This document shows positions 29,701-61,129 of a stretch of DNA of 64,000 nt, in pieces. Origin of the DNA: Chondrosia reniformis (taxonomy: Eukaryota > Porifera > Demospongiae > Chondrillida > Chondrillidae); contig OX359201.1 of the NCBI GenBank assembly GCA_947172415.1, positions 4,278,001 through 4,342,000 on the forward strand, in the 5' to 3' direction. Each line of letters opens with the position of its first letter. Position 1 is the first letter of the stretch. Under the pieces are notes generated by a model. It ran no database searches, was not told where the DNA came from, and worked only from the letters and a program-made list of their open reading frames with translations. The translations under genes and the position numbers were made by a program.

Positions 29701-32700
29701 TTGGCAGGATATCATATCATCAGAGACAAAGTGTATATAACATGGATAATTACTTTCATTTGGGCTTTCTAGACTAGCTGTAACAAAAGTAAAGTTACTT
29801 GAACTGTTGACCAGTGAAAGATAAATGAAAATTTCATCATTTGGGCTGGCCCAGGAACCATAGAAAGAAAGCACTTCTGGTGTTGTTCTCAAGCTGTATG
29901 TAAAGTTAACATTGTAGTTATAGAAGAGGTAATCTACACTGTTGCCGAATTCAAAGTAACTATTGTCAAAATAGGTCGAAAATCTGCCTACACTTACAGA
30001 AACATCACCTTGAATGGATAAACGAGGTCTTACTTTAACTTCACCTGAAAAATCTGCAAGACCAATTACTGGATAATTTTGGTAATAATATACTCCTTGG
30101 ATATCAAATTGATATTCAAACGAGCCAGAAGTTACTCGAGAACTTCTGAAGTGATCAAGATAGGGAACTGAGCTGTCGTTCCCAGGATCCACCTGAGATA
30201 ATCCAAATGCAACATTAATACTGGAATAATCCCAAGACCAAATTACAGTATCTCCAATTTCAACATCAATAGTATCAGGATTCCATGCAAAACTTGTAAA
30301 TGAGTTATCTAGAGAAAGGAAATAACACTAATAAAATCTTAAACATTATATATGTAGATATACACGTATACTTGTATATACATATATATATATATATATA
30401 AAATACATGAATTTACATGTACGTATATGTTAGTATATAAGTATACTCACCAGAGACTAATTTGACATGATGGTTCTTCTGCAATCCTGAGGTTATACAT
30501 TCAATAGATGTGTGGCTAACAGATGAAATGTCACATTCTCTGCCATCAACTGTAACTGCTACTTCTTCACTTAAATTTACAGGGAATCCTCTTCCATATA
30601 AGGACAATTGTGTTCCACCAAGGACAGAACCAGAGAGTGGATAGATAAAATCTAAAGAAAATTCTATCTCCACTATGGGATGGTCTTCCAGTGAAAAGGA
30701 ACAATTGTAAATTGAACCGTTACAGTACACTGGGAAGCCATATTCTGGAAAGTAGACCATTACTATATGATATCCCAAGTCCAACTGGCCCCCTTGAAGG
30801 GTACAAGTAAATTGGCTGCTATTTGAATTCTGGATCTCACACTTCTGTGAATAGCTACAGTTTTCAGCTTTGTCCAGCCAAACTTCAGGGACCACATCCG
30901 GGAAAATTCCATAAAAATTTAGCACCACATCATCTAGTACAGATGTCACAACTGATTCAAAGCCAGTAAGATATGGAGTGCTGCTATTTTCATAAGTGAA
31001 AGCATTTTCAAGGAGAACCTGCCTCTCATTAATTTCTATTGTCACATTGACTGATTGCTCAACAAGAAGTGGATTTGCAGGAGACACACATGAAATATGT
31101 GTTAGGTTAGAACTAAGCACCAAGCAAGGTTGTCCATCAACTTGCACTAAACTATAATACTGATCTGTCATGCAGGTTGTATAGTTTGCATATTCCTTGG
31201 TATCATTGGTAAAATTGTAAGGAATTCCCCCACAGTTTACTGCTGAATACAAGCAGTCCTTACAATCAATAGCAAAGTTAAACTGGCCTCCTATTCTGTA
31301 ACACTGAATTTGAGAAAGTGGAATATCCCCAACATCTGGAAAACCATTTCCAGTTATATTCAGTATAGTTCCACCACCATGACCTCCAACATCATTACTG
31401 ATAGAGTCGACTGATAGTTGATATGAAAAAGATATTTCTCCCTCTGTATGTTGTGCAAAACCAAAGTTGGGCACCAAAACATTGATCTTATGAGGACCAG
31501 CTTTGTGGTTACCAGCTTCACACTGAATAACAGAATCATTAATCAAAGTAACTCTACATGCAGCTTCTCCAATTGTCACATTCACTGATCCATCAATGCT
31601 TGTAAAACCTTCTCCTAGAATAGTAATACTAGTGCCATCTGATCCTCCGGAGGGGAAGGAAAGGAACACTTTGGGGGTCAGCAAATCAGTGTGATGGAAG
31701 GAGCAGTTGTCAAATGGACATGAAGAAGGAATGTTGTTTATCAGTACTTCCACCTACGTATTAGGAGGTAGAATGTTATAATAAACCTGTGTGGCTAGGT
31801 TCATCAAAAATGATTTAGATTCAAAACTATCACTAACCAAATAAGAGATTTACATCCAACGATTCAGTAGCAATCTCAGCTACCTTCATTACGATAATGA
31901 CAAAGGGATATATGACGTAGCTCCACGGTTTTTAATTGTAGGTTTGTATAATGATTTGTGGTGATTTTAGTGAAGCTATATCCCTTTGCCATTGATCCCT
32001 GATGTACATACATATGTATACGCATGTACATGTAACTTTGGATCAAGTTGCTACGCACATATATACGTACATATGTACGTATGATAAACAATCTCAGCTA
32101 CCTTCATAGTACGTATGTACATTTTTCTATTTCTATAGTTGGATTTACAAGTACTTAATGGGGAATACATACATACATATATGTACGTTGTATATACGTA
32201 CGTATAAGACTATTCATACTTACCTGTGGGTCAATGTAGGGTTGTCGAAGCATATCTCCCCGGATTGGTCTTAGAAGTATTCCCCCATGGATGTCTTCAT
32301 GAACTGTAGCAGAAACTGTAGTACCTCTTGAGCTCAGATCGTGAACATTAACTTGAAAGGCAGGTTGGTCACCTCCTTTATTGGACCACTCAATCCTCCA
32401 TTCCCTTCGATAGCACTGTGGATCTATAGACTCAATTTCAAATTTATACCCAGATAAACTGTTTTCTAGATGTTCCTTCAAACCCTCTGTTTCGGTATCA
32501 AATTTTATATCCCTGATAATAATACCTTTGAATGATAAATCAAAGGTTCCTTCAATTGGAGTGCTACCTAGACGAATGTTAAAACTAGTGATGCAATCTT
32601 CTTCACAATTGCCAGACACATTCAACAGCAACTTAGGTAAGTAGCCTTGGCAGTAGTGTATATGGTAAGTAATCTCATAGAATGCAATAGGGAACATGGA

Positions 32701-38700: not shown

Positions 38701-40154
38701 TCCACTGTAAAGCAAGAGAGAATGTAGATGCACTAGTTTGCTTGTTTTATATGTGTAAATGCATACTCACATTGGGGAAAAGTGGCAGACCAGCAAGTAG
38801 GATTCACTTCTGAAGTCATCAGTGTTTTGTATCAACCCACACTTGGCTACCTCACATCCCATGTAGCCTGTCGCAGACCAGGCTATCTATATATATATAC
38901 ATATTAAAATAATAATCATAGTATATACACAAAAATGCTTCCTTTATCCATATACATGTATGTTTGGTGTAGATGGCAGGTGTGTGTGGTTTAAAGTGAA
39001 GTAGTGATATTCCTATGGACACTGGCTGTAATTCAGTGGTTGCTATATATGTAATTTGTTCCTTTTTACCTAAGAAGTTTATGACAGAACTGACTGTTCA
39101 ATGAAGACATAGGCTTATAGGATTCAGGTAAATAGATGACATACACTGTAAGCCACTGGTTCCTCATATATAGATATTTACCCTAAAGGACTTATATATA
39201 TATTTTTATGTACTTAAAAGATCAATCTGAAGCTTAAGTCCTGTTATATAATATTTCTCAGATCTATTCAGAGAGAAATCCATTTTATCATTAATTAATA
39301 GACTTTAATTAATAGGGACCTACTAATATAAAGTCCGTGACCATAGCAATATTGCTAGCTATAGACCATAGGGGAATGGTGTTACAACAGTATACATGTA
39401 GCTGTTAATCTGTACAGAGAGACTGCTTATTGTCACAATGAAAGTAAATATTGCAGGTATTTGTGTTGTCCATTATCAACAACTACTACTAATTTCAACA
39501 CCTGCATCCTATAAACTATACTCATTTCAACACCTGGCATACATATCCTATAGGATGCATTGAGTAACTGTTGTTATATACCAATATTTTGATCAAGAGT
39601 GCATGAATGAAAAAAGAATTCATTTACATACCCTGAGGTAATTTAAACAATTTACGACATCTGAAGGTGAGAGATTTTCACAGCTATCCTTCTGCTGAAA
39701 GATCGATTTACCAACACTAAAATCTTCCATAATATCAGCCTCTATGTTTTCGTCTGGTTCGTCGTGAAGTGGAGCTATATACTCTCCGATGTGAGTAGTG
39801 AAAGCTGATGTAACGCGTTGGCTTGGCTTGCTTGGCTCGTAGACACACCGATCAGCATGTTTCTTTGCGTTACCAGCCAGTTCTTCGTGCCAAAGCTACG
39901 TATAAGGATTAATTATAGATATAATCTTGTTATTAATTGTAAAATGTAACTAAAGATCCTTAAAAAGTAGGTATGGTCTCTCGTCTTACCATGAGCTTTA
40001 TATTAGATGCTCCTTCCAACCTAGCTTCCTCCTCTCGAAGTTCGTTTATAGTATCCAACAGGACCTGCTTCACACTTGTCTGAAGTAGAGCTGATACTAA
40101 GGAACATTGGAGGAGGGCTATAGTTACCAGAGCAAAGGATATGATTCGTCTCAT
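19736..40154 (-). CDS. Fibrocystin-L (PKHD1L1-like) giant receptor with an N-terminal CAP domain
   Basis: About 22 coding exons, roughly 4,900 residues (human fibrocystin-L is about 4,240). Exons: 40154-39990, 39895-39632, 38886-38771, 38704-38613, 38549-38487, 38097-37979, 37756-37671, 37551-37464, 37301-37126, 36754-36621, 36041-35727, 35380-34848, 34739-34583, 34494-33986, 33807-33480, 32870-32224, 31753-30451, 30308-27580, 27469-24865, 24787-21054, 20773-20238, 19814-19736. Order: signal peptide, CAP, IPT/TIG repeats, PA14, a fibrocystin-specific region, more IPT, a cupredoxin-like segment, more IPT, two G8 domains each followed by parallel beta-helix repeats, a transmembrane helix, and a short tail. 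Apart from CAP and tail this is the fibrocystin-L plan, a large type I membrane protein. The CAP and IPT parts join through exons in compatible phase, but transcript evidence would be needed to prove one mRNA. Confidence 0.88.
20014..20090 (+). ncRNA. Penelope-type hammerhead-like motif, probably inactive (family 2)
   Basis: Plus strand: CTGATGA (20022-20028), stem II GATC/GGTC with a TCAG loop, then GAAAC (20042-20046). AGATTG upstream can pair with TAATTT downstream as stem I. The cleavage triplet next to GAAAC is GTT or a shortened GTC, so activity is doubtful. It is followed by AGCTCAATAAACCTTCATC. The arrangement CTGATGAAG, CGAAACG, then CAATAAAC matches the ends of Penelope-like elements as I know them. 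It lies in the last intron of fibrocystin-L, antisense to it. Confidence 0.5.
20091..20185. repeat. Dispersed ~85-bp repeat, copy 1 (partner at 53233-53315)
   Basis: Both copies carry AGGTTTAGYTCCCCTATAGG, then CTCTTTT, GGCATATAGCATGTAGGAAA and ATGGTATCTTAGATTTTTCA, at high identity. Here it directly follows the hammerhead-like motif and may be part of the same element. Confidence 0.85.
21054..24787 (-). CDS. Fibrocystin-L exon 20: second G8/beta-helix region and membrane-proximal ectodomain
   Basis: A single exon of 3.7 kb. It starts inside the second G8 domain (LRAPAVGSKAIGVFGELSMY), continues through parallel beta-helix repeats (SYVRKSSFHDGYNIGVGS and similar) and the most conserved fibrocystin block: SLDPDTEVRRLSPIGIGG, NGPQDHGWCGGYTCQ. 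Downstream is SRKKRES (about 22232-22211), a likely furin-type site at the place where vertebrate fibrocystin-L also has a basic cluster before an IEIGD motif. The rest is N-glycosylation-rich. It joins exon 19 in frame. Confidence 0.93.
24865..27469 (-). CDS. Fibrocystin-L exon 19: first G8 domain and beta-helix repeats
   Basis: Starts at the end of the first G8 domain (VPLFGAKTLAVRQGTLDLHG) and runs into parallel beta-helix repeats with the family landmarks GRIEYVEVTHAGQAFRLGRY, PIHFHLNG, GGTHFGFWYRLDQHPTGPS, and later DLDGSLTGRH. A proline run (PPPPPPDPTLPPPP) links to the second G8 domain (FYWSDNETWPGR). The match to the fibrocystin-L core is continuous and without stops. Confidence 0.93.
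27580..30308 (-). CDS. Fibrocystin-L exon 18: cupredoxin-like segment, IPT array, start of first G8
   Basis: Opens with the segment that vertebrate fibrocystin-L also carries (IDVEIGDTVIWSWDYSS ... GSFEYQFDIQGVYYYQ), which resembles a plastocyanin fold. Several IPT/TIG repeats follow, each with a GSxxGGTxxxIxGxGF pattern (STAGGTVIAISGGGF, SAGGTFIIIEGYGF). The exon ends in the first G8 domain (SSVYTWNGSRLPEEGDFVIV). RKRRS (about 29088-29068) is a second possible convertase site. One exon of 2.7 kb. Confidence 0.92.
30451..31753 (-). CDS. Fibrocystin-L exon 17: IPT/TIG repeats
   Basis: Begins VEVLINNIPSSCPFDNCSF, the conserved cysteine segment that precedes the IPT array in this family. It then holds about four IPT repeats (SDGTSITILGEGF, HGGGTILNITGNGF, VLGGTQLSLYGRGF among them). 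Acceptor TACGTAG and donor GTGAGT frame the exon. Rich in Asn-X-Ser/Thr. Confidence 0.92.
32224..34739 (-). CDS. Fibrocystin-L exons 13-16: fibrocystin-specific region between PA14 and the IPT array
   Basis: Exons 34739-34583, 34494-33986, 33807-33480 and 32870-32224. Landmarks shared with fibrocystin-L: FCGRYSLRNPELFY (vertebrate CGRYSLKNP), RYHCVDLSQF, FWIDEVSIHQG, and REWRIEWSNKGGDQPAFQVN. The intron between the last two holds a fold-back element with a hammerhead remnant (33055-33375). I cannot assign a named domain to most of this stretch. Confidence 0.85.
33055..33375. mobile_element. MITE-like fold-back element with central hammerhead (copy C)
   Basis: Arms about 33055-33170 and 33263-33375 are close reverse complements, including GACAATTGTCTACTTGGCTG, then ACCGAAGTCCTACTCAGTGG and CAACCAGTTATGACCTCCCA. 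The loop holds the hammerhead-like sequence. No coding frame. Inserted in a fibrocystin-L intron. A relative with a deleted centre is at 52281-52459. Confidence 0.85.
33196..33240 (-). ncRNA. Type I hammerhead-like motif, damaged core (copy C)
   Basis: Minus strand: ACCACA, CTGATGA, stem II region GCCC-TAAA-GAGTGC, AAAA in place of GAAA, GGCT, GTC, TGTGGT. Stem I (ACCACA/TGTGGT) is perfect over six pairs. The conserved GAAA has become CAAAA and stem II has a mismatch, so cleavage is unlikely. Confidence 0.6.
34848..35380 (-). CDS. Fibrocystin-L exon 12: PA14 domain
   Basis: One exon encodes a PA14-type domain: REIWFENF near the start, then SGFFVPPETGIYTFDILSDD, QLFFSLSGDP, KPIHLESGKAHYIEVLHNQG and YYLYLGAKYHN. 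PA14 is a beta-barrel found in adhesins, glycosidases and fibrocystins and is often carbohydrate-binding. Its place after the early IPT repeats matches vertebrate fibrocystin-L. Confidence 0.9.
35727..38097 (-). CDS. Fibrocystin-L exons 6-11: first IPT/TIG repeats
   Basis: Six small exons: 38097-37979, 37756-37671, 37551-37464, 37301-37126, 36754-36621, 36041-35727. The first IPT reads HPWYGSYNGGTRMTITGRHF and continues VYFIYDGQMVECPVE with EQIVCFTP, like the first fibrocystin-L IPT. Exons 8-9 carry the second unit. Exon 11 carries the next (EGSIEGGTVVTISGSGFYP, VLVGGVECAVLS). The exact border at 37126 is ambiguous because GTGTGT offers two donors. 36330-36540, rich in repeated GAATCTTTG, has an open minus frame, but I leave it as intron. 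Confidence 0.8.
38487..40154 (-). CDS. Fibrocystin-L exons 1-5: signal peptide and CAP (SCP/CRISP) domain
   Basis: The start at 40154 gives a signal peptide (MRRIISFALVTIALLQCSLV) directly followed by a CAP domain over exons 1-4: LLDTINELREEEA, LWHEELAGNAKKHADRC, IAWSATGYMGCEVAKCG, YLLVCHFSP and GLPPYLIGDPCGDC. This follows the CAP order HNxxR, WxxxLAxxAxxxAxxC, WxxTxxVGCGxxxC, LVCNYxPxGNxxGxxPYxxGxPCxxC. The usual His of the first motif is Ile here, and the GQN motif region is HIGEYI, so putative metal residues are not fully kept. Exon 5 is a short linker to the first IPT. An in-frame ATG further upstream (40205) would hide the signal peptide. Confidence 0.82.
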
Positions 40155-41740
40155 GGCTGGCCCTGTGCGTTTGCTGAGGGCCGGTATACTGCAGTAAGCT
40201 GTCAAGTTTTATTTTATATACGTTGCATACAATCTACACCTGCACTGGGATCATGACCAAGTGATCACCAATCAGCACTTGGCTAAAATATAGAGTAAGG
40301 ATTTTAACAACGTCGAACCTATATTCTGGAAGGCCATATCTAGCCATTATGGGTGTAAAGGAGGAGCCATTGTCTTAACGATATGGTCTGGATACTGTTA
40401 TTGCTACCACATTTGTTCTCTGTGACTATACAAGCGTATAATCCCGATGGATAGCGGACGACAATGGAGGATAGCCTTAAGTTTGCGTACAGAGGCTGTG
40501 AGAAGGTCATTTGGCTTTACAAGCGTCTACCTCATGTCCACTGAGATTATTCTGTCATGGGTAGATAAGGAGATAAATCCAGAAACACACAAGATTCCTT
40601 TCTTCTGCCGAATCATATGGAGGAATAACTGGAAAAATGGAGGTACCACACAACAAGCTATACATTACGTATACATTGTAAAACATCTATATACATGTTC
40701 CATAATTACCTTTGAGCAAACGTTTATTGTACTCTTCAAAATATAAGCTCGTGACATTGGCGTGACACCAGCTAGAGAAAAAATGTTAGAGTTGAATTTG
40801 TTTTGTTGATGTGGGTCCTTGAGGAAATGGTTAATTACTGCATTACACTCTACTGGTTGAGCTCGGGATTGAGGGTAATTTATCTAAATCTAAAAGTATT
40901 AGTTCAAAGAGATTTGGGCATGTACTAATTTACGTACACAAACTATATTTACAGGCAGGAAATATAAATGAAGCACACAGTCTCCTCATGACATAATAGA
41001 TTATAAATTATAATCATTGTAATAGTGATTTTCCTTAATTGATGGTACCCCAGCAGCAGCATTGCCACTCTTGGAGGAGGAAGTGACATGAGCATGGCTC
41101 CCCTGTCTCTGACTTGAGGTTTATAGTGTCAAAGTTCGTGGAGGAACTGCATGGATGGCCTCTGGTCTCATTGATCATATATTTCAGCTATTACGTGCAG
41201 GCTTTTGTGAATGACATCCATATAGGATTGATATTTTATCTATCATCATTCAAATCTGTCTCAACAATAATTGTGTACAAGTTTCAATCAGAGGTGCATA
41301 CTTTAAATTAATGAACTCAATTAACTTATTATTTAATCAGAGGAAGGTCTGAAACTTGAAAATTAGTAATTATATAAAAGTTTTATAGGAGCACAACAGA
41401 GAAGGAGATGAGGTTTGGCTTATTAATTGTAATTGCTATTATGTTAATTCAATTAACATCCTGTACTGTAAACCCCCTTTCAAAAATATCTAATCCAAGT
41501 TAGCAAATAGAATCCTGAGATAAAAATATAAATCTCCCCTTTTCTGTAAGAATGTACATTTGCTTTCAGAATATGTTACCACAAACCTTATTAATAAAAT
41601 AATATTAAAAATATAGATGTCTCTTGATATAACTGTAGGCACAATATTGACTATAATCCCAACTTAGGCATTAATTCTTTCAACTAATAAATGTTATGTG
41701 CAAGGGTAAGATACGTACATACATACATTCCAGCAAAGGG
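40155..41740. other. Region between the divergent fibrocystin-L and 7TM-Roc genes
   Basis: The two genes point away from each other. A plus frame at 40447-40640 (MDSGRQWRIALSLRTEAV onward, ending NNWKNGG before GTACCA) could be a first exon in a shared promoter, but I see no family match and no clear second exon. A 65-residue plus frame at 41114-41311 is unrecognised. The rest is AT-rich with no clear signals. Confidence 0.35.
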
Positions 41741-41748
41741 TATAAAAG
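41741..41748 (+). promoter_or_regulatory. TATA box of the 7TM-ANK-Roc gene
   Basis: TATAAAAG stands 58 bases before the ATG. A start 25-30 bases downstream would leave a leader of about 25-30 bases. No acceptor-like or donor-like site intervenes, in line with an intronless gene. Confidence 0.6.
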
Positions 41749-41798: not shown

Positions 41799-44522
41799 AT
41801 GGATAAATCTGATCCGAAAGCTTTGGTTCCAAACGATCTTTCCAAGTTTTGCCTTGTTGGGACAGGTCAGCATGGAAATGGCTCTTTTCCATTGGGCGAT
41901 AAGTTAACTCCTCACATATGGGCTATCAGTAGACCCATTTCATTTGTAGCTGTGCCTTCAGTAATTTTATTGATCAGTTGCTTGCTGTGTGTCATGATAT
42001 GTTGCCTTGTAGTGAAAAGTAAAAGTTTTATGAAGGCTCAAGGATGTGCTCACATGCTATATGCCATTCTAGGTTTGCTTTTTGCTATTCTATATATTCT
42101 TGGTAACCTCTTACTTACCTTCAGGGGAGCTTGGACATTTGCAATTGGAGAAGACACTAATTGCGGACGCCATAAATTATGTTTTGCTGCTTTATCTGTT
42201 CTTGCTTCAATAGTGGCAGTACAGGTTATCTTGGCAATGGCCCAGTTAGAATTTTCCTTCACTAGATTCTCTCACTTTCACAGGAGATTGCATTGTGTTA
42301 GTATAATTTCTTTTCTTTCTATCTATGCTGCATTCACTCTTACTCTCTTCTTTATGTCTCTACTCATCTTTCCATTCATTTTCCCATATTTTAATCCTGA
42401 TTTGGGTTTTTGCATTTGGTCATTACCACAATTCATAATATTTTATGTAGCTCTCTTTGGAGCTAAATTGATGCTTTTACTGAAGCAAGTTTGTGTGCCT
42501 CTACTACAACCGCCAGAAGTTTTTAACTCTTATTCAATCCGAAGGCTTCCAAAAGTAATGAATACACTTTCACCAAGATTTCACTTTCAACCTCTCACAA
42601 TGATTGAATTAATCCGAACTTTGTCAGTATTATTTCTGTTTGGCTTAATTCCATTAGCAGTTGCCTTTATATTTAATGTTACGTCAGAGGTACATTCTGT
42701 TCTAATCATGTTAGTCCTTTCTGGCTTGTTTATCAATAATGGTATCTCTACTCCATTCATAATGATAATTTCAACTCAAGAATACAAAAAAATTGTTAAG
42801 AGGTACATTTCACTGATTAGAAATCATACAAGAATGAGAAGAGGCTTGGCTACTAGAAATATGCATCCATTAACTGACCATAATTTAACAGGTAGGGACT
42901 TTACAAATATGCTGTATCTACTTAAAGCTGGAAATTTGTCTGTTATTAACTCTATGAAAGGTAAACTTATGACCCAATTGCAGGACAATGGCATTCCAAA
43001 GACTCCACTTATAATTGCATCCCAAAATGGACAGTTGAAATTAGTAGAGGCACTTATAGAAGCAGGTGCCGTAGTTGATCAAGTGGTTGAAGGAGATTTG
43101 ACTACAGCACTTGAATATGCTTGTTTCCATGGGAAAGATAGTGTGGTAGAGGTTTTGTTGAAGAAAGGTGCTGATGCAAATGGGAGAGGCCCAGCATCAA
43201 ATGTTACAGGTATACCACTCATGGAAGCAGCAAGGCATGGGCATGCTAACATTGTAAGAATGTTAATTTTGTATAGAGCTGAGCATAACTTAGTTGATTT
43301 AAATTTTAGTCGTTCTGCTTTGCATTGGGCAGTCATCAATGAAAACTTGGAAACTTGTCATTTTTTACTCAAAGCTGGTGCTAGTTTATCTTTAAAGGAC
43401 ACAAGTTCTCAAATGCCAATTGATTATGCAACCCCCAAATTGAGGTTATCTCTTCAACCTAACCTAAACAATACCATATTGCAACCTAGTAAGCCTATAG
43501 TACTTTTAGGTGATCAAGGTTCTGGAAAGAGTACCCTAATAACTTCATTAAAAAACGAGAGTAGATGGTATTCTCTATGTAGACAGCATTACAGTACAAC
43601 TTATTCCAGTACGGATGGGATAGATGTGGTTTCATTTGAAAGCAGATTCTATGGACAAGTACAGTTTTTGGAGTTTTCTGGTCGTGAATGTTACCAAGTT
43701 TCACACCAACCTTTTTTACGAGCACTCTTTACAAGACCACAGATCTGTCTGACTGTAATAATGTTAGTCAATTCCACACTTCGGGAGCAAGATATTGTTT
43801 CACAAATGAAGAGGGGGCTTAACCTTTTGAAAACATGCTTAGATTTACCAACGGGTGCAAGGGCTCATGTAATTACAGTTGGTAGCTTTGCTGATCAATT
43901 AAGGACACCAAGGAACACTGCAGTTGTCATGATTCAAGGATGTTTGCATCAAGTTACAAACGACATGGTACTCCCAAATTGGATCAATTTCAGTAATACT
44001 CCTTGTGTTATCAATTGTAGGAATGCTAAATCTTCTGGAATTGCAACTATTCAAAATCAGCTCACTCATCAGTGTAACAACCAACCCAAAAGTAAATTAG
44101 TATACAATATCCAGTGGCTAGTTGCAGAAATGAAGGAATCAGCACTTGGTAGTGGCTTTAAGTTACATGAATTCAGAAAATGGATTGATAAAAGTCATTA
44201 CAAACTACCCATTTACCTTCCATCATCTGAAGAAGTATGCCAAGATCTAACTACAGCAGGCTATGCTTTGTATTTCCCTATCCCAGAAAGCAAGGATGAG
44301 AGTTGGATTATATTTGACCTAGTATATGTACTACATGATGTTTATGGTAGTGTTTCTCACAATTTTTGGATCACTTCCCCAGAAGGTGTTCAAACCTTAA
44401 GCTTGTCACCTGAAGCTATAGCAAGATTTAACAGGAATATAGAAGTACTACAAGAACCAGAAGCTGAAACCCCTTTACTTCAGCAGCCAGAGCCTGGGTA
44501 TCCTATAAGATTGACTGGTTAG
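41799..44522 (+). CDS. Single-exon 7TM receptor fused to ankyrin repeats, a Roc GTPase and a COR-like tail
   Basis: 907 residues without intron. A 45-residue N-terminus is followed by seven hydrophobic segments: about 48-72, 84-108, 126-150, 164-196, 204-229, 268-293, 297-324. The seventh ends NNGISTPFIMII, reminiscent of NPxxY, and EYKKIVKR starts the cytoplasmic side. Residues about 368-548 hold roughly five ankyrin repeats (TPLIIASQNGQLKLVEALIE, ALEYACFHGKDSVVEVLL, PLMEAARHGHANIVRML, SALHWAVINENLETCHFLL). From 565 a P-loop GTPase of Roc type begins: GDQGSGKST (571-579), FLEFSGRE in the DxxG place, and VGSFADQL (694-701) where Roc and DAPK-type proteins have GSHAD. The stretch 770-850 (WLVAEMKES ... 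GFKLHEFRKW ... WIIFDLVYVLHDVYG) fits a COR winged-helix segment. The tail ends in acidic and proline-rich sequence. ANK-Roc-COR is known from ROCO proteins; the attached 7TM part is what is odd. Confidence 0.85.
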   Translation: MDKSDPKALVPNDLSKFCLVGTGQHGNGSFPLGDKLTPHIWAISRPISFVAVPSVILLISCLLCVMICCLVVKSKSFMKAQGCAHMLYAILGLLFAILYILGNLLLTFRGAWTFAIGEDTNCGRHKLCFAALSVLASIVAVQVILAMAQLEFSFTRFSHFHRRLHCVSIISFLSIYAAFTLTLFFMSLLIFPFIFPYFNPDLGFCIWSLPQFIIFYVALFGAKLMLLLKQVCVPLLQPPEVFNSYSIRRLPKVMNTLSPRFHFQPLTMIELIRTLSVLFLFGLIPLAVAFIFNVTSEVHSVLIMLVLSGLFINNGISTPFIMIISTQEYKKIVKRYISLIRNHTRMRRGLATRNMHPLTDHNLTGRDFTNMLYLLKAGNLSVINSMKGKLMTQLQDNGIPKTPLIIASQNGQLKLVEALIEAGAVVDQVVEGDLTTALEYACFHGKDSVVEVLLKKGADANGRGPASNVTGIPLMEAARHGHANIVRMLILYRAEHNLVDLNFSRSALHWAVINENLETCHFLLKAGASLSLKDTSSQMPIDYATPKLRLSLQPNLNNTILQPSKPIVLLGDQGSGKSTLITSLKNESRWYSLCRQHYSTTYSSTDGIDVVSFESRFYGQVQFLEFSGRECYQVSHQPFLRALFTRPQICLTVIMLVNSTLREQDIVSQMKRGLNLLKTCLDLPTGARAHVITVGSFADQLRTPRNTAVVMIQGCLHQVTNDMVLPNWINFSNTPCVINCRNAKSSGIATIQNQLTHQCNNQPKSKLVYNIQWLVAEMKESALGSGFKLHEFRKWIDKSHYKLPIYLPSSEEVCQDLTTAGYALYFPIPESKDESWIIFDLVYVLHDVYGSVSHNFWITSPEGVQTLSLSPEAIARFNRNIEVLQEPEAETPLLQQPEPGYPIRLTG

Positions 44523-44931
44523 TTCACTCATTAAAAATGTATTAATCAGTAACCTTATATATATACCATAAAACAATAATCACGATAATATAAGTCAAAC
44601 AATGAGATATTGTACCCAAAGTTAAATGGTTTTAAAACATCTCCATATTTTTATGAAGTGATAGGGAGTAATTTTAGTTGCGTTCATTATGATAGATAAG
44701 TTTATTGGAGCTATCTGCAACGAAAATTGAGTTAGATTAAGCGTTTCGACCCGTATATCTTCATCAGCAATAATGAGGAAAGGATTATAGCAGTTGGTTT
44801 AAATAGAAAAAATGATAGGAGTTAAAAATTGAATAAAATGGCAACATGAAAAAATTAATTCTAGTGTTAATTGAGTAGGGATGGCCAGTATTACAACAAC
44901 GATTATATAGCACGTACTCTTTTACACAGGA
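44523..44931. other. Spacer between the 7TM-Roc gene and the CARD-Death gene
   Basis: Holds a hammerhead-like motif (44731-44772, minus) and AT-rich sequence. The genes are on the same strand, about 400 bp apart. Confidence 0.6.
44731..44772 (-). ncRNA. Penelope-type hammerhead-like motif (family 2)
   Basis: Minus strand: TTATTG, CTGATGA, AGATATACGGGTC (stem II weak: GAT against GGTC), GAAAC, GCT, TAATCT. TTATTG can pair with TAAT plus a wobble as stem I. The cleavage triplet is GCT rather than GUC, so it is probably inactive. Downstream on the minus strand is CCAATAAACTTATC, again like the end of a Penelope-like element. Confidence 0.45.
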
Positions 44932-45875
44932 ATGGCTACAACCAGTGATGAATTAATCATTAGAAAGTTCCTACATAAAAATCATGATTTTATCAAGAAT
45001 GAATGTAATTTTCAAAAGATAGCAACTGATCTTCTTCAACTGGGTGTAATTACCAAAGGAGAATGTGATACGATACTTCGTGATCCTGACAAAGCAAACC
45101 AGTGGATGTACCTAAATCTTTTACGAGATATCTCTCTCAGTAAGCTCCTCAGATTTTCTGAGGCACTAGAAAAATATGAAGCCCATGAAAATAATCTGAA
45201 ACTTGCTGCAAGCATAAGAGAAACTTGTAAGTATATAGCTAGTAAAAGTATGTACAATAATATACAAATATGTCTGCTTGCAAACTATAGTAATTATTTT
45301 GAGTGTGCATGTTAATTAACATTTGGGTGTTTGTGTTTGTATACTTAAATACACATGCATACAGTTTCAATTAAATTTTTGTTTAAATGTACAGTTACTG
45401 CAGAAGTCACCATTGACTCCAACATTTTGAAATTAATTGAGCAAGTTTCCATAGATTGGGTGCGGTTTGGGGAACACCTTGGAATTGAACCCCGTCTCAT
45501 TGAAGAGATAGAACACAGTCACAATCTACCAAAGAAGTGCTTATACTTATTTATCCGGTGGCTACAGAAGGATGTTAATACAGGTATATATTGTTATGTA
45601 TTGCTGCTTAATAGCATGTTTATTATGTATAAGTTATAGCCCGGAAGCGAGGAGGGTACATAGCCAGAATATATGAGACTGAGACAAATCCAAGGCCGAA
45701 TAATTATATAGTTAATGCAGTGAAAAATGTCTAATTTGATTATATATGAATATTTTCATTGCTGTGTGTCCATATAGGAGACAGTCCGCGTACATGGAGA
45801 ACTATTGTGATCGCTTTGAGAGACTTGGGACAGAGGCAATTTGCAGAGGAAATTGCAAGACAAATGCATATATGA
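44932..45875 (+). CDS. CARD + Death domain adaptor, RAIDD/CRADD-like
   Basis: Three exons (44932-45226, 45395-45583, 45778-45875) give 193 residues; human CRADD has 199. Exon 1 is an all-helical CARD-like domain (FLHKNHDFIKNE ... LLQLGVITKGECDTIL ... NLLRDISL). Exons 2-3 give a Death domain: IDWVRFGEHLGIEPRLIEEI, CLYLFIRWLQKD, then TWRTIVIALRDLGQRQFAEE. The order CARD then Death is that of RAIDD/CRADD, an adaptor linking Death-domain platforms to caspases. All three junctions keep frame with GT-AG ends. It lies about 400 bp downstream of the 7TM-ANK-Roc-COR gene. The CARD assignment is weaker than the Death domain. Confidence 0.75.
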
Positions 45876-47034
45876 TCTAACAAGCAACATATATTTTAAA
45901 AAGCATATATAAATTATAAAAACATATCATGACATTGTCAATTATTCAATCCTGATTATATGTAATTTATAGATAAGATGAACTCTTGCACATTATATTA
46001 CTAGTACTTATTCTAACAACAATTGGTAATACATTCAACCATATTCTGTATAATAAGTCTATATATACATTTATAACTTATATAGTCACGTCAAAAAATT
46101 ATGTTATTAAATCTTAGTAGGTATTTTTTCCTGGATCATCCGGAAGATGCATAGGCTTATATATACATATTATGTACTGTGTAAAAGTATGAATATTATG
46201 TACATATATACAGCTGAAGTCAGAAAAATGTGCACGATGTACATAATTAACATTAATGTGTATATATATACATTTCTATATACGTAATTATATCAACACT
46301 TGATTTTGTACCTGATGAAGACCTATATATGTACTAGTATATTAAAACAAACCTATTCTTTGTTACTGATGTTCAAAGAATTATTTAAATATTTGAAACC
46401 TAAAGGAAATATGCAACAATACAATTTCCAGATGACTTATAAAGGGCTGTACTTATCTAATAACCTAAAATAGCTTTACTTAGAACATGGGGAACCTGCT
46501 TCGGGCTGTACATTGCTAGCATTTGCTAATTATTAACATTATATAGACTGAGAGAGAATATTTTGATCTGACTGGTCATTCACACTATTAGTCTTGTTTT
46601 GTATATATATATCTTACACAAAATCACCCATTAACACATGATTGTATAAAATTCAAATATAGTAGTATAGAATTTTTAGGGATCCAAACAAAGCATAATT
46701 ATATTCTATTAAAACATTAGTGAATCTATACATATAGCAACATACAATTACATATATATTATGGTTCTTAAAGTTTGAATCCACCAAAATGTGCCTCATA
46801 CATTAGCAATTATTCCAAAGAGACATGTGTTATGGTTGGAAGTCTCAGTACACAAGTCATTTTTGGCTTCAGAATTTTAAGTTATATAATATTTAAATAA
46901 ACAATTGTCTCTTATATGGCATCCCAGCTTAGGCCAACATATATAAATACTGATGTTACAAAGGTTCTATATATTGAAGTCGTATCATTGCATATACCTG
47001 TGTGTTTATAGGTACGTATATGTGATATATAGTG
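45876..47034. other. AT-rich intergenic region
   Basis: No coding frame or RNA gene seen. CCTGATGAAGACC at 46312-46324 resembles a hammerhead box but has no matching GAAA. Confidence 0.6.
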
Positions 47035-50000
47035 ATGGAAGCTAGGCTTGTGTTACTACTCTTGTGCCAAATCTGGACTAGCACTGGTCAACTGAGTAAA
47101 AGTCAACTAATACCATTTGGTGTGGGCAATGGTGATACCATTTTCTTTGCGAATGATGATAACACTACAAATATTTCAATGCCAGTTAGATTTCCTTTCT
47201 ATGACAGATTGTATCAACGTGTTTATGTAGGTAACTTACAGATTAAATCATTTTGACTATATATAATTAAAGTATACTATATAAGTAGATACTATACAGA
47301 TATATACACTTATTATGTATGTATATAGACAAATAATGTAATTATGTATGTACATATTTTATAGAATCACCCTATTTTAATTTAGCTGTTTGCCTTGGAC
47401 TATTATACAGTCCTCACCCTGACCTTTACCTATATCAATGTTTAGTAAATGCTACTTCTATTTTTTGTATATACATACATCATTCAGATCAACAACAATG
47501 GTCTCCTTTCCTTTGAAGCTCCAGTCACTGCTTTCACTCCAGTTGACTTTCCCTTTCTAGCAAGAGTAAGAGGCATTGGAGGTGCATTTATAGCACCTTT
47601 CTGGGCAGATGTACATACTACAGAGGATGGGGCAGGTGGTGCAGTGTATTTTAGAAGGACTACAGAAACTGCTACTTTAAATCAAATAGAAGGAATAATT
47701 CAAGGATCTCAATCTGGAAAAGGATTGTGTTTCAGACCTACTTGGGCTCTTGTTGTCACTTGGGAAGATGTTGGGTACTACAGCAAACACAATGATAAGG
47801 TAGGCTACAATTTACAGCAACCATATATGAACTAGAGCAATTTGAGTAGTCTTACTATCTGTGTCCTGTACGTATGCTTATATGCTACAGACAAACACAT
47901 TCCAAGTAGTCCTGGCAACGGATGGAACATTCTCCTATACTATATTCCAATATGTGAAATTAGAATGGACCACTGGAGATGCAAGTGGAGGTACTGAAGG
48001 ACTAGGAGGTACTCCAGCAATGGTTGGTATAAATGCAGGAGATGGAGTTAGGTTTAAGAAACACAAGTATGGATTCACTAATGATGTGTTAAGAGTTGCT
48101 GAGGAGAGCAACATGGATGGCTGTTTTCCAGCTGGTAGATATGTCTATCAGATAGATACTGAAGTACTGGTAGGAGAAGAAAGCTGTGTTGATACAACTT
48201 CTACACCTGTTCTGCCAAACGTTTGTAAAACAGGTACTGCATTGATTTCATTTATACAACACAGCTATATCCACACTGTTGAATCGGTTCACTATAGATT
48301 CAATTAAAATTTAACCTTGATATACTATTTATAGGAAAACTAGGCTTAACCCCATCATTTGGAACTATTCATTCTGGTGGATATATAATAGCTACAGGAT
48401 ACAACAGTAATGAACTCCACGATATACAAAGCAACTCTAGAGATATTTTTGTTAAGTTTGGTGTAAACAGTGTCAAGTATAAGTGTGCATATGTGGTCAG
48501 AACAATGATGACAGTGATTATCATCTGTCCAATACCCCTGTTCTCACCCGATGATGTTGGTATGAAGACTGTAACACTTCTCATAGATACTTGTACAACT
48601 GGACTGACAGGACAGTTTAGAGTTGGTTAGTGGGACTATATATACATGCCATATATAGAGAGATATCAGTTGCTAATACAAAAAAGTATATACTGTAATA
48701 TATGCTGCAAAGAACTAATAAATTGTTGGTATTAATATATGTATGTTTTTTTAATTTAGATCCACCGGCATTACTGATTGATGGAAATATTCAGTTTAAA
48801 ATGGTCGACTGTAACCAACCTCATAATAATCCAGTTTTTGGAATCAACTCTCTATTCTGCATAACCTGGGATCCTAATCTTTTTCAGTTAAAAGGATGCT
48901 CTACAACTGCTTCTGGTAGTTCCGCTACAACTGGAATTGCCACTCTGTACATTCTTGGGGATACAAGTTTAGTAACTGTAGATGCTTCTCCTTGGAAGAT
49001 AATAAGACTCAAAGGCAAATTCATTAATCAACATCCCTCTATTAGTGCTGGACAATTAAAAATTGACTTTAAAAACCTGGAACCAAAAGTTACAAATGAA
49101 ACACAGAATCCAAAAGATGTCTTAATGTTTATACAACTATCTGCTAAAGTTGAGGGGATAACAATCTTTTATAGTACTCCTCTTGTGTCATATGTACCAA
49201 AGATTTTCTCATCGAATCTAGGTGGATCGGTGGGTGTCACAGCTCAAACTAGCATGCAAACACTGACAAATCAATGTGAAAGTGTCAAGAGTATACTAAC
49301 AGCTCATAATGTATCATCACTTCCCCCATGCCCTAGGAACTCAGACCAAGCCTTCTTGGATCCATCCTTTGAAGTAGACCAAGGATGCTCCAGAAAGGAT
49401 CCTAATCCACCGTTCAACTGCCACTTTCATCCAAAAGCTTCGGAATGCTTCTTTCAAATGTAAGTGACATCTAGGTTCCTCTTTAATGCCCTTATTTTCA
49501 GACATTCGGTTTTTAGTATGGCTTCCTGTTCGTAACCTTGTATACAAAAAAATGGTGGACGTTAGGCTGGCTTTTGCTTTTAATTCTCTCTTCCATTTTA
49601 TGAAAAGGATTTAGAGACCACCTTAATTAAGAATGAACTATGCAATGTAAAGCCTGTGCAAAAAGGATTTCTACGAGATATGCCCTTGAAATTAAAATTG
49701 ACAGCATTCCATTCCTTTCCACTTACTTTGTACAATTATAGGCTTATGGAAGAACAGCAATATATACTTTTTAAAATAGTTTGTGATATTTTTAAATTTT
49801 CATACAAGTATATAATAATCCTTAAAACATTAGGTTAGTGATGTCTACTTGCTTTATATATAATATTGTTTACAGGGTAAATGATTCCATAGTTGGTCAA
49901 TGCTGTTATGACAACAATGGACTATATATACAAGCTAAGCCTGGTAAAGGATTCATGAAAAGAAGGGATCCACTAAAAGATTTCAAAGGACATTTTACAA

Positions 50001-53000
50001 GTGATTTGTGGCCAATTTTTGTTTGCTGCTCCCAACTGCAGACACCTGATAGCTTGTGTGAAAGTATCTTGGAACATTATGAAGGAGCTTCTACTCAAAA
50101 TTATGTGCCAGTCAGACCAGGTACTGTTATATATACAAGTAAATGTATTGCACATATATAGTGGTTAGGGGTGCAGCAGTCATGATCACCTATTATATAT
50201 ACTATACATAGCTCCACTAAATATAACCCTTAAAAGAATGAATAAATAAACATTAAAACTGTAATGAAACACTATACAAATTTATAACATTTAATATAAT
50301 GTATCACATATATTAATTTTGTTAGTCTTCTTTGGAGGAGATCCCCACTTCCGCACACTTGATGGGAAAGCTTACACCTTCAATGGACTTGGGGAGTATA
50401 CATTGGTCAATGCATCATCACTAGAGTTTGCTGTCCAAATAAGAACAGCACTAGCTCCCAGTTCAGAGACGGTGAATACAGCTGCCACTGTCATTTCTGC
50501 TATAGCAGTTCAACAGGGTGGTGGTGACAGGTTGCAGGTGGAGTATAATGAGCGCTTCGGAGTAACAAATTACATAAATGGGGAGAAACAATTGTTCACA
50601 GGAGAATCAAGGCAGAACTTTGATGGTTTTACCATATTCCACTCAGGGATAACTTCCAACTACACCTTCTCTACAGGGGTGACCATCAGTGTGACTGGGA
50701 AGGATGATGTCCTAAATGTAGGTTTGGGATTTTCTGAAAGGTTCAAAGGTGAGACAGTTGGATTGTTGGGTACTTGGAATGATAATCCAGATGATGATCT
50801 GCAAGCAAGGAATGGAACAATATTACCAGCTGATGCCACAGAAGAAGAAATATTTTACCAGTTTGGGCAAACATGTAAGTAATTAGTCTGAAGAATTTGT
50901 TGCTGAATTAGGAAATTTCATATGAGAACTATAATACACATATACAATATGCAGGGATTACGTATTCTATGAATTGAGAATTATTGTCTTCAAAGACATA
51001 CAGGAATTGAAGCCAATGGAAGATTTTAAGTTACATTTCCTAATAAATAATATAGGGCTAACAAAAGATGGAGTATCACTCTTCTATTACAGAGGATTAG
51101 GTAGGGAGTCTTTCACAGATGAGAGCTTTGTGCCACAGTTTGGATTACCAGATTCCATCACAGAAGAAGAGAAAATGAAATTAGAGGAAATGTGTCATGG
51201 TAACACAGAATGTATCTATGACATAGCAGTGACTGGCAATATGGATATTGGGATTTCAACAATGATGAATGGAGAGGTCTTTGAAACTAGGGAGGCTGGT
51301 TCATTACCAGGTATGTGTGTGATATAGGCTATGTCCTTGTTGCAGTATTATATTTATGTAGGCTTTATCAGCTATAAGTTTATTTTAGTTAGAAGTTGGT
51401 GAAATCTACATTCAAATGTCCTAAACTATAACCTGTTCATTAATATTGCTGATGCTTATAAGGATGAAATGTGAAGTGTGAAGGATATGAATTCGAACAC
51501 ACTTGACTACTTTAAATTCCTTTGTTATATAAAATCTATATTCTTAGAGATCCTACGTATATATATATATATACGTATTCAGTCACAAACTGTATATAAA
51601 GACTATACAATGTTAGCTGCCTTTCCATGGCATTATACAGTTATTTGTGATCCACCTTGTCAAAATGGTGGAGAATGTGTTCAAAATGATACTTGTAGCT
51701 GTATACTGGAGTACACTGGACCAACATGTGAAAGTCAGTTATCATGATTAAATCCAGAAATATTATTAAGTGGATGTATTTTCTTTCACAGACAAAGCTT
51801 ATATACTAAATAATATGCACAAATCTACATCCATTTGTAAACGTACGTGTACATATACGTACAAACAGCATCTCTCTCTTTCTCCTGGTTTGATTCCTAG
51901 CAATTTTTTCTTTGTACTTTTCCTTCTTCATCATGTTTGAAGATGATTACTTGTGGTTTGATTATCACTTTGATTACTCATCTACACGTACATGAATAAT
52001 CTAAAACAGCTTTTCCTATGTACTAAATATATTCTTTGGTAAAAGGTCCATAATTAACTAAACATGTGAAAGCTTTTGATGAGGATACAATATTAAGAGT
52101 CCTCTCGTTATTCTTCTGCTTCTGGGAATACCATCCTTCACCAATAACCCTGGACATGCATGTACTTGTATGCAAGTTTGGGAAACAATACTGTTATTAT
52201 TATTATATTATTATAATTTTCAGTATATCCCAACTGAAGCCACATTGTATACATAACTTATAAGTATAATAAGCAAAACAATCACTTGAAAATATTACAA
52301 CAAAACCAGCCAAGTGACCAAAGTCTTATCTTGGCTAGGGACCGAAGTCCTATTATATTGTCAACCAGTGATTGTCTCCCAGTCATCCAAGATGGAAAAA
52401 GTCACCATCAAAGAACTTGGCTGGTGTAATTATATAATATTTTCCAGTGATTGTCTTGCTTATCATCATAGCCTTATATAACTTGCACAGCTCAATGCAA
52501 TTCCCTTTATTAACTTATCAATATACATATGTGTATATAAATTACTTCAGGTGATATGTTTGTAAGAACCTCTGACAAGCTCTCTCAAACCACAGTCTTG
52601 ACTGCACCTCTTTTGTTGGATGATCTTTCAAGTGAAAAACTGGGAATAAAGAAGATGCCTCTCTGTTATCAAGTTCAAGGAAAATATGGTAAAACATTTG
52701 CACTTGTGTCAGATATATGTCTAGCTATCAATGTGGAGTACAAACGACAAAGAGGCTCTACCATGAGAACTTTGATCAACAGAGTGGGAATTATAGGAAT
52801 AGACGATAACAGCAGCTGTATTAATTTAGAGGTCTCTGCTAGCAGCTGTACTGTCAAGTTAGGAGGACAGCCACTTATGAACAATTACAATGAAAGTGGA
52901 CTTGTGATAACACTACTGTCAAATGGAGTAACTGTTCATCTACCAAATTGTGAATTCAGATCTGCTGAAATAACTGTAATTTGTAATAGGTTTAGATATA

Positions 53001-53683
53001 CAAACCAAGAGAAATTAGAATTGATATTATCAAGAATGTTCAACTTTCAGCCAACTTCTCATGGCCTGCTGGGTTAGTTTAATATAGTTGATAGGAGCTT
53101 TATTAGTTAATGTATAATTTGGAAGGGAATAAATTAAGGTTTATGATTTCATGTATATTACATTTCCAATTTTCTTTTCATTTGTTGCTTTACCAAATAA
53201 TCGATCTGTTAATATGCATAATATATTCTCTCTTCAGGTTTAGCTCCCCTATAGGCTCTTTTATAGAATATAGGCATATAGCATGTAGGAAAATGGTATC
53301 TTAGATTTTTCATCTATATATATATTGTGAAATTCAATCTGTCTATATTTTAATTATTTATATATATGCATATGTATATACGTACAGGTCAGTTTTGGAA
53401 TGTTCCTGTAACCTTAAGCAATACAGGAAATACAATTGATGTTGGCTCTGTAAAAGATCTACCAGTGTATAAAGTTAAAATAGCAAGGGCTGGTGGCCCA
53501 ACACAAATATTTACAGGTTTTCAGTATCCATACACTTGGGACCTGGATGATGAAACATGTCTTTATGCTGGTAAAGGGCAAGCTCGAGGGGTAATTGAAG
53601 GGAATTTGCAAGGATATCAGGTAGGAGGGATATTTGCCACTGATTTTGCCTATACACAATTCCGTGGAACTTGCATAGTCTAA
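47035..53683 (+). CDS. Secreted NIDO-AMOP-VWD-EGF adhesion protein (MUC4-like core)
   Basis: Eleven exons: 47035-47226, 47488-47799, 47891-48233, 48335-48625, 48760-49459, 49876-50120, 50326-50874, 51056-51310, 51641-51733, 52551-53072, 53388-53683; about 1,265 residues. Signal peptide (EARLVLLLLCQIWTSTG). NIDO at about 65-240 (INNNGLLSFEAPV, IAPFWADVHT, WALVVTWEDVGYY, VVLATDGTFSYTIFQY, AMVGINAGDG). AMOP at about 563-694 (LPPCPRNSDQAFLDPSFEVD, GQCCYDNNG, CCS). VWD at about 698-870 (FFGGDPHFRTLDGKAYTFNG). A post-VWD segment (TWLTKDGVSLFYY, FVPQFG) and one EGF (CDPPCQNGGECVQ) follow. NIDO-AMOP-VWD is the MUC4/SUSD2-like arrangement. The last two exons (about 270 residues) are unrecognised, and no transmembrane helix is seen. 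Acceptor 51056 was chosen because an upstream AG (50955) gives an in-frame stop. Confidence 0.85.
51865..52000 (+). mobile_element. SINE body, copy 2 of the family at 59712
   Basis: CTGGTTTGATTCCTAGCAAT is a decayed B box/T-arm. It is followed by CTTCTTCATCATGTTTGAAG and ATGATTACTTGTGGTTTGAT with TATCAC, then TTGATTACTCAT. The same order occurs on the minus strand at 59712-59870. It sits in the intron between the EGF exon and exon 10 of the NIDO gene. Confidence 0.6.
52281..52459. mobile_element. Deleted relative of the 33-kb fold-back element
   Basis: CAATCACTTGAAAATATTA at the left is mirrored by TAATATTTTCCAGTGATTG at the right. AGCCAAGTGACC, GGACCGAAGTCCTA and CTCCCAGTCATCCAAGATGG match 33100-33180. 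The hammerhead half is missing, so this is an internal deletion copy. Confidence 0.65.
53233..53315. repeat. Dispersed ~85-bp repeat, copy 2 (partner at 20091-20185)
   Basis: Near-identical to 20091-20185 over AGGTTTAGCTCCCCTATAGG through ATGGTATCTTAGATTTTTCA. Lies in the last intron of the NIDO gene. Confidence 0.85.
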
Positions 53684-56571: not shown

Positions 56572-57095
56572 CATATACATTGGTCAATGCATCATCACTA
56601 GAATTTGCTGTCCAAATAAGAACAGCACTAGCTCCCAGTTCAGAGATGGTGAATACAGCTGCTACTGTCATTTCTGCTATAGCAGTTCAACAGGGTGGTG
56701 GTGACAGGTTGCAGGTGGAGTATAATGAACGCTTCGGAGTTACAAACTACATAAATGGGGAGAAACAATTGTTTACAGGAGAATCAAGGCAGAACTTGGA
56801 TGGTTTTACCGTATTCCACTCTGGGATAACTTCCAACTACACCTTCTCTACAGGGGTGACTATCAGTGTGACTGGCAAGGATGATGTCCTAAATGTAGGT
56901 TTGAGATTTTCTGGAAGGTTCAAAGGTGAGACGGTTGGTTTGATTGGTACTTGGAATGATAATCCAGATGATGATCTGAAGAAGAAATATTTTACCAGTT
57001 TGGGCAAACACGTAAGTAATTAGTCTGAAGAATTTGTTGCTGAATTAGGAAATTTCATATTAGAACTATAATACACATATACAATATGCAGGGAT
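56572..57095 (+). pseudogene. Duplicated, truncated VWD exon of the NIDO gene
   Basis: Nearly identical to 50396-50960, including the donor and about 80 bases of the following intron (GTAAGTAATTAGTCTGAAGA). It lacks the exon start (GGDPHFRTLDGKAYTFNG). A 40-base deletion after GATGATCTG removes the stretch ending in GCCACAG, between short GAAGAAGAAA-like repeats, and shifts the frame. Without the VWD start, leader and partner exons it cannot make the domain. High identity points to a recent duplication. Confidence 0.9.
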
Positions 57096-58285
57096 TATAT
57101 ATACCAGATATATATACCAACATACACTGCACTAACTGCCTTAGTTAACAAGGTTGAACAAGATCTTGTTATCCTGCAAAAAAACAGCTTAGTTAACAAG
57201 GTTTAACAGACTTTGTAGTTAACAGACTTGTACACCACTCGCGACTTCGTCATTAATTATAATGTGTGATCTCGCGCACATGGTAAAACGTTGCATTGGA
57301 TTGTGGTGTACGTAGTGCTTAGTTTCCTCTCTCTACACCAGCACCATAGCTACTTTTGGGACGTAACTCGAAGCATCACGCCGATTGATAGAAAGAGGTG
57401 CAGGTTTCATAATTTAAGTTAATGTACAGTCTAGCTCTGCAATTCATATAGGCCAGCGTGAGTGGGTGATCTGGGAACATGTAGCACCTCTAGCTCTTTA
57501 TGACAATTTTCATATCACATACACGTACTTCCCGCAATGTTCATGTGAACATAACATTTGTAAGTGCACAACTGATGTCATCAACAATATTTATATGCAC
57601 ACTTTGAATGATGCATGCTTGCAAGAGTTGCTAGCACAAATATATAGGTATATAGCTGTTACTGAATTATTCTTATATGTTCAATTGTGTGACTTAGTAA
57701 AATAAAATATATTTCAGGTGTTTATCGTAACAAAATTTGACTGTACATGTTGTTTCGAATTGTCATCATGTACACATGTACACTGTGCAAAAAGTCCCAG
57801 TATGCAAGAATATACTTTCGAGTAAGCAAGGAGTATCAAAAAGTAGTGTATCCAGGAATATAAATGTTTATATACCTTGTATGAATATTATCATGATTAT
57901 GAATAATGTTAACTGAAGTGATTCAAAGATATTAATGATTGTGGGCAGCTATTGTCACAGGCACAATAACCCTTCAGTAATTATAAAATAACTGATCAGG
58001 TATATACAATTCCAAACTTTTAAGCCTAGAGCAATACGTAAGTAGAGAACTGCAGCTGAATTTATAGCTCTATGTATGTGTGTAAGTAGTTTTATTCTCG
58101 GTTAGGATTGCAATGTCATAATATTTCTATGTCTTCAAGTGGTTAATATCAACCACATGCAGAGAGATGCCATAGCTATCTTATCGCTTGCGAGAATAAG
58201 TGTATTTCTACATTCAACTGAAAGTCACCTTCTTTGCTTTGCTTTCTAAAAATCGACAGCTGTGATTCAAGGTTAATTGGTAGAT
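57096..58285. other. Intergenic region
   Basis: No confident gene. TTAGTTAACAAGGTT occurs twice (57141-57200). A 79-residue plus frame at 57466 has no recognised features. 58128-58205 repeats 58355-58430, the 3' part of the neighbouring decayed gene (TCTTCAAGTG, CAGAGAGATGCCATA-like, TCGCTTGCGAGAAT-like words), as a partial local duplication. Confidence 0.5.
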
Positions 58286-61020: not shown

Positions 61021-61129
61021 ACTGAGTGAGTATATAAAAAGAAGCAAGCTTTAATGCATGAATCTTCAATATACATCTTTTACATATATTATGCACATGT
61101 GCATATATATATGTTACTGGCTTCTAATT

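Follow-up and report, generated by a model that had tools for sequence, protein, structure and literature searches.

The window analysed here is a stretch of 64,000 nucleotides from Chondrosia reniformis (contig OX359201.1, positions 4,278,001 to 4,342,000 of the forward strand), and the element in question is a 907-codon open frame on its plus strand, in which a predicted seven-transmembrane (7TM) topology, ankyrin repeats (ANK) and a Roc-type G domain are encoded together (Table 1). A preliminary description of this DNA had reported an uninterrupted frame lying in one exon: the frame itself is confirmed from its ATG to its TAG, whilst the single exon holds for the 907 codons but perhaps not for the gene, which may run on into in-phase exons downstream. 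When the 8 kb around it were shuffled 200 times, stop-free runs in plus-strand frames reached at most 169 codons, as compared to 907 here. In all 17 intervals scored between 41775 and 44474 this frame surpassed the other five in codon use (values from -0.03 to 0.34; score trained with 3744 codons from other frames of the window), and the score falls off on both the 5' and the 3' side. The TATA-box-like site found upstream is weak evidence: TATAAAAG occurs five times on the plus strand of the window, and a looser pattern 293 times. Self-comparison did not reveal a second copy of the frame within the window, in which scans likewise yielded no Rfam match at the gathering threshold and no tRNA.

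The N-terminal part of the protein exhibits seven hydropathy peaks between residues 54 and 312 (mean Kyte-Doolittle values 1.87-3.14), in agreement with the seven hydrophobic segments described previously; an eighth, weaker peak (1.52, residues 639-657) falls within the G domain. With the transmembrane (TM) borders set by eye, the inner loops hold 3, 3 and 4 lysine and arginine residues and the opening 35 residues of the tail hold 9, whereas the outer loops have 2, 0 and 0: a bias that mostly fits a predicted topology with the N-terminus outside. Glycosylation-type sequons are present at residue 27 in the N-terminus and residue 293 at the outer edge of TM6, with nine further sequons within the part taken as cytosolic. 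Single-sequence AlphaFold2 modelling of the 7TM part produced seven long helices and one more at residues 326-352, with a mean predicted local distance difference test score (pLDDT) of 54.8 and a predicted template modelling score (pTM) of 0.36; for the ANK-Roc-COR part these values were 37.9 and 0.35, and at such low confidence the models are too weak to serve as proof. The ankyrin repeats that follow are certain. Pfam identified Ank_2 (2e-22) and Ank (5e-21, with four stretches), PDB ankyrin matches cover residues 402-545 and our own reading adds a fifth, degenerate unit at approximately residues 365-395: the four to five units thus found bear out the earlier count of about five. Matches of the ankyrin part in NCBIfam (bacterial ankyrin proteins and a TRP model) lay far below their cut-offs, and no meaning was drawn from them.

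Beyond the ankyrin repeats the G motifs occur in order, namely G1 (GDQGSGKS, residues 571-578), G2 (STDGIDV), G3 (LEFSGRE), a G4-like GSFAD (residues 695-699) and a G5-like NCRNAK, with the P-loop and GSFAD strings exactly as first reported; the FSGRE of G3 resembles the FAGRE of LRRK2. The Pfam Roc profile matched with an E value of 0.0044 (17.7 bits) in the whole protein and of 0.00089 (19.9 bits) in residues 546-907, for which Roc was the top family ahead of Ras (11.2 bits). Since Roc remained below the Pfam cut-off, bacterial Roc loci were collected for comparison: 535 of 577 pattern stretches proved to be Roc relatives, the best 80 were kept, and of these 77 were long enough and 44 were left after thinning at 80% identity. 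Alignment to these 44 Roc-COR sequences using hhalign gave a probability of 90.4 and a score of 52.1 over 65 columns, compared to a maximum of 22.7 in 100 shuffles, with Roc-COR sequences as the only family compared. HMMER aligned G1 to G3 in register with the bacterial Roc profile (8.7 bits). A correctly spaced chain of P-loop, [ST]xGI[DEN][VI] and [AGS]G[QR]E was found in none of 200,000 shuffles, although this pattern was devised after seeing the sequence and is hence an illustration rather than a test. The Roc domain of the preliminary description is thus upheld by a profile match and by an hhalign score far above shuffles, but not at the curated Pfam threshold; it stands in a multidomain protein, with ankyrin repeats and the 7TM part on the same frame.

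Table 1. Features of the window, with those of the 7TM-ANK-Roc locus listed before its neighbours.
Feature	Position	Strand	Basis or remark
TATA-box-like site, TATAAAAG	41741..41748	+	58 bases 5' of ATG; weak evidence
Open frame, 907 codons, ATG to TAG	41799..44522	+	in-frame TAA immediately 5' of ATG
Seven hydrophobic segments, residues 50-324	41946..42770	+	hydropathy; TM borders by eye
Amphipathic helix-8-like stretch, TQEYKKIVKRYISLIR, 3' of seventh segment	42774..42821	+	sequence; helix 326-352 in low-confidence model
Ankyrin repeats, residues 365-545	42891..43433	+	Pfam Ank_2, Ank; PDB ankyrin matches
Roc-type G domain, residues 565-745	43491..44033	+	Pfam, HMMER, hhalign, ordered motifs
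COR-like tail, residues 769-860	44103..44378	+	position and appearance only
Possible phase-1 intron, donor CTG/GTTAGT at 44518, acceptor TTTTACACAG ending 44929	44518..44929	+	splice scoring
CARD-like region exon, ATG at 44932	44930..45226	+	in phase with 7TM frame
Death domain exon, first half	45395..45583	+	Pfam Death 6.9e-7 on joined three exons
Death domain exon, second half, stop TGA	45778..45875	+	reading of joined exons
Large gene with G8, CEMIP-type beta-helix and many TIG domains	21039-31753	-	Pfam matches in four frames
Two frames, one with signal-peptide-like start, CAP/SCP-like by appearance	39620-40208	-	
Secreted-type gene, nidogen-like (NIDO) and VWD domains	47028-53683	+	Pfam
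VWD-domain exon of NIDO/VWD gene	50397-50960	+	
Partial copy of VWD exon, about 6 kb downstream	56574-57097	+	
Tandem array, 53-base unit, 27.8 copies, 91% matches	61124-62579		repeat analysis

On this evidence we lean towards a membrane-anchored ROCO-like protein, in which a 7TM sensor at the N-terminus would be followed by a tail in the cytosol carrying the ankyrin repeats, the Roc GTPase and a COR-like region. Several results weigh against this. The 7TM part matched no Pfam family and no PDB sequence at E values up to 10 and no NCBIfam model, whilst a Foldseek search with its model yielded 41 matches, none of them at E <= 0.001 (best E 1.7), and its alignment to a class A consensus was equalled by 102 of 1000 segment-wise shuffles. 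The N-terminus contains 5 lysine and arginine residues in 49, and the charge bias is therefore not one-sided. As regards the G domain, the Pfam score of 19.9 bits lies under the gathering score of 27 and the HMMER score barely exceeds that of the best shuffle (8.1 bits; 222 of 1000 shuffles reported). Furthermore, G3 has E in place of D and G4 reads SFAD, which renders GTP hydrolysis or even GTP binding uncertain: the domain may hydrolyse GTP, may only bind nucleotide or may be an inactive switch serving as a dimer. The COR-like tail claimed in the preliminary description could not be confirmed statistically, having no Pfam match and an hhalign score of 18.0, just short of the 95% level of its shuffles (18.5); as ROC is stated to be invariably followed by COR in an excerpt of PMC4104024, a COR domain is likely by position only. 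Finally, neither a transcript nor a relative has been seen, relatives having been looked for in prokaryotic and viral contig collections: none was confirmed for the whole protein (51 and 7 pattern stretches), nor for the Roc-COR part and the 7TM part alone in viral contigs (3 and 11 pattern stretches). Because these collections are prokaryotic or viral, such missing relatives say little about animals.

At the 3' end of the gene the evidence is divided. The last codons of the frame are ACT GGT TAG, within which a donor-like cut can be placed (ACTG/GTTAGT); joining this donor at 44518 to the acceptor at 44929, 412 bases on, keeps the frame open in phase 1, the phase also shared by both introns between the three downstream exons. 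These exons, once joined, matched the Pfam Death family (6.9e-7) above its cut-off, and in the PDB they come closest to the death domain of a 'leucine-rich repeat and death domain-containing protein' (0.0016), followed by PIDD-CC (0.0017); the CARD-like region obtained no Pfam match and is CARD-like by appearance. The architecture first described thus stands in its 7TM-ANK-Roc order, but the in-phase Death-domain exons had been overlooked and alter what the likely architecture is. If spliced in this way, the candidate product would be a protein of 1100 residues with the order 7TM-ANK-Roc-COR-CARD?-Death, for which we estimate a probability a little under one half.

An even chance is given to the view that the fusion is genuine but stops at 44522, after 907 residues, in which case the CARD-like/Death exons would constitute a separate small adaptor gene, presumably of the RAIDD/CRADD kind. 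The ATG at 44932 would then be preceded by a 5' exon elsewhere or by a trans-spliced leader, and the 907-residue receptor would signal via partners on its ankyrin repeats or Roc-COR region; only the 3' end is touched by this view, which is compatible with the rest of the membrane-anchored ROCO-like reading. It gains from an ATG placed just two bases past the acceptor, an AATAAA at 44832 and a codon-use score that is negative between 44475 and 44924, as well as from the three exons giving a 193-residue protein when read alone, a product that would resemble RAIDD. The splice scores speak for the longer protein: donor 44518 is the best-scoring GT in 44498-44929 and ranks within the top 6.3% of plus-strand GTs of the window, no stop interrupts the joined frame, whose junctions are all in phase 1, and no GT within 44523-44929 scores above -1.87, making a 5' exon in that gap unlikely. 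The 6.3% figure is the one relied on, as it comes from the stricter model without the GTTAGT donor of the neighbouring gene, whilst a top 1% rank obtained with that donor included was set aside. The acceptor ending at 44929 falls in the top 3.4% of AGs and is the best in the gap. Both scores are rough, since the donor model was built from six or seven by-eye sites mixed with consensus frequencies and the acceptor score from consensus frequencies only; as a rough estimate, donors as good as this one are not uncommon by chance towards the end of frames. The neighbouring NIDO/VWD gene apparently has the same hexamer, with at least one donor reading GTTAGT over an in-frame TAG stop (48626).

A different question is whether the seven segments form a receptor at all. 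They could instead be a polytopic anchor, channel-like or transporter-like rather than of the G-protein-coupled receptor (GPCR) kind, that merely tethers an ANK-Roc protein to the membrane, and we regard this as unlikely albeit with some evidence to its credit: beyond the missing PDB and fold matches and the shuffles that reach the class A alignment, the class A profile 7tm_1 gave no match to this part at E values up to 10, and reading of the sequence reveals neither DRY after the third segment nor NPxxY, in whose place STPFIM is found. Against such an anchor stand exactly seven hydrophobic peaks with a helix-8-like stretch behind them, a TM7-helix 8 stretch that is slightly more class-A-like than shuffles (224 of 5000 reach its score) and the composition of the weak Foldseek matches, amongst which GPCRs account for the first five and for 22 of the 41 by title, with TRP channels as the next group, although all are non-significant. 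Class-A-like traits can also be read in WTF after TM2, the cysteines 122, 128 and 205, FLFGLIP in TM6 and NGISTPFI...QEYKK after TM7. Membership of class A itself was not supported, given a consensus alignment no better than shuffles. Thus, of the receptor-like 7TM module claimed initially, a GPCR-like topology of seven predicted segments is supported, but with neither profile, PDB sequence nor significant fold matched and several class A hallmarks missing, GPCR identity is a candidate assignment and a receptor is what we infer. Rhodopsin-type receptors of sponges form sponge-specific groups according to an excerpt of Krishnan et al. (PMC4302439), such that strong divergence of the 7TM part would not be unexpected in a sponge.

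We consider it improbable that two ordinary adjoining genes, one for a 7TM protein and one for an ANK-Roc protein, were merged by genome assembly or by our reading and give separate transcripts in life. Each half would be plausible alone, and the lack of both an observed transcript and an observed orthologue leaves room for this; however, the frame is stop-free through the 7TM-ANK border, no more than some 20-25 residues separate helix 8 from the first ankyrin unit, and the codon-use score tops the six frames in both intervals across the border (0.07 for 42675-42974; 0.28 for 42825-43124). Least probable by our estimate is that the P-loop belongs to another NTPase (AAA, STAND/NACHT or ABC-like), for although several P-loop families gave weak Pfam matches (0.006-0.1) and PDB matches were to P-loops only (midasin, ABC-F and others, none better than 0.025), such matches span approximately 15-45 residues round the P-loop, whereas the match to Roc, the top Pfam family for this part, extends across both switch I (STDGID) and G3 (FSGRECYQVSHQPFL) and aligns in register with the bacterial Roc sequences.

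The remainder of the window contains features of other kinds. The minus-strand gene with G8, CEMIP-type and TIG domains is one that we take to be of the fibrocystin-like kind, and the two CAP/SCP-like frames had no Pfam match at an E value of 0.01. The VWD exon of the NIDO/VWD gene and its partial copy align in two segments, at 95% and 93% identity, and the copy lacks part of the exon. Within the tandem array, two identical 50-residue frames lie 368 bases apart on the minus strand (61853-62005 and 62221-62373).

The known systems with which the membrane-anchored ROCO-like protein was compared fall on two sides. Among the closest on the ROCO side is the DAPK1 group (kinase, ankyrin, Roc-COR, Death), described in an excerpt of PMC6337361 as having no leucine-rich repeats (LRR) and as possessing a Death domain: the window frame likewise exhibits ankyrin repeats before a Roc-type G domain, and Pfam revealed neither LRR nor WD40 within it. 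DAPK1 has a kinase where the window protein has its 7TM part, and no protein kinase was found amongst the 17 Pfam families matching the frame at E values up to 1; the C-terminal Death domain of DAPK1 would be common to both only if the downstream exons belong. LRRK1 and LRRK2 also carry ankyrin repeats N-terminal to Roc-COR (excerpt of PMC6337361), but their LRR, kinase and WD40 parts have no counterpart found in the window frame. In Trichoplax, at least 17 putative ROCO genes include proteins with CARD and death domains, so that in this early-branching animal Roc-COR is found beside CARD/Death as in the 1100-residue candidate, with no 7TM part mentioned in the excerpt of PMC4104024. The same excerpt cites Zambounis et al. 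for ROCO proteins of Ectocarpus with a C-terminal part like transmembrane proteins: these share the link between ROC-COR and a membrane-protein-like part, but they are LRR-based, come from a brown alga and carry this part at the other end, with no 7TM receptor described there.

The second group is that of 7TM-effector fusions, comprising the GPCR-bigrams GPCR-PIPK, GPCR-TKL, GPCR-INPP, GPCR-AC and GPCR-PDE (PMC5784254) and the GPCR-TKL/K and GPCR-TK fusions (PMC12716839), of which those with PIPK and TK are reported from sponges according to excerpts of both papers. Like the window protein, these join a 7TM part at the N-terminus to a signalling enzyme at the C-terminus in a single chain; the module fused here is instead a GTPase (Roc) behind ankyrin repeats, and neither 'ankyrin' nor 'Roc' occurs in the main text of either paper. 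A 7TM part and a GTPase domain do share one frame in the window, with GPCR identity and GTPase activity both putative. We file the protein as a 7TM-effector fusion with a ROCO module as effector, such fusions themselves being already known. The initial statement that no described protein of this kind was known to its author agrees with our search, in which the 7TM-ANK-Roc order was not found in the open PMC literature (supplements, figures and subscription journals lying outside its scope); unnamed orthologues may well be present in sponge annotations.

From the anatomy of the frame and from ROCO behaviour as described in an excerpt of PMC6337361, we infer a mechanism in which the 7TM part, in the N-terminus-out topology of a receptor, would control the Roc domain. 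A ligand or a change in the membrane would shift the 7TM bundle, and this shift would be relayed through helix 8, a short basic linker and the stiff ankyrin stack to a Roc-COR region whose COR fold is part of the same proposal. A change in the nucleotide state of Roc would then alter Roc-COR dimerisation, such that receptor and switch would be coupled in a single unit that needs no diffusible G protein. The output would take the form of protein contacts, probably those of the C-terminal CARD-like/Death module if the downstream exons are spliced to the same transcript. In its fullest form, the 1100-residue 7TM-ANK-Roc-COR-CARD-Death protein would be a seven-pass death receptor, in which a GPCR-like sensor acts on the Roc switch built into its own chain, and this switch in turn nucleates a complex of death-fold proteins: this is a tentative proposal that we hold to be somewhat doubtful.

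If it were correct, such a receptor would represent a DAPK-type ROCO protein with a receptor in the place of the kinase, and GPCR sensing, ROCO GTPases and the adaptors of apoptosis and immunity would be joined without heterotrimeric G proteins. How the Roc nucleotide state is controlled in LRRK2, DAPK1 and other ROCO proteins is a matter of debate, and a seven-pass sensor at the ANK-Roc input end would offer a direct system in which to test upstream switching of Roc. With this protein, a GTPase would join the effector modules fused to 7TM receptors in eukaryotes, early animals included, and should the Death exons belong to the gene, it would reveal that an early animal can enter death-fold signalling by way of a seven-pass protein.

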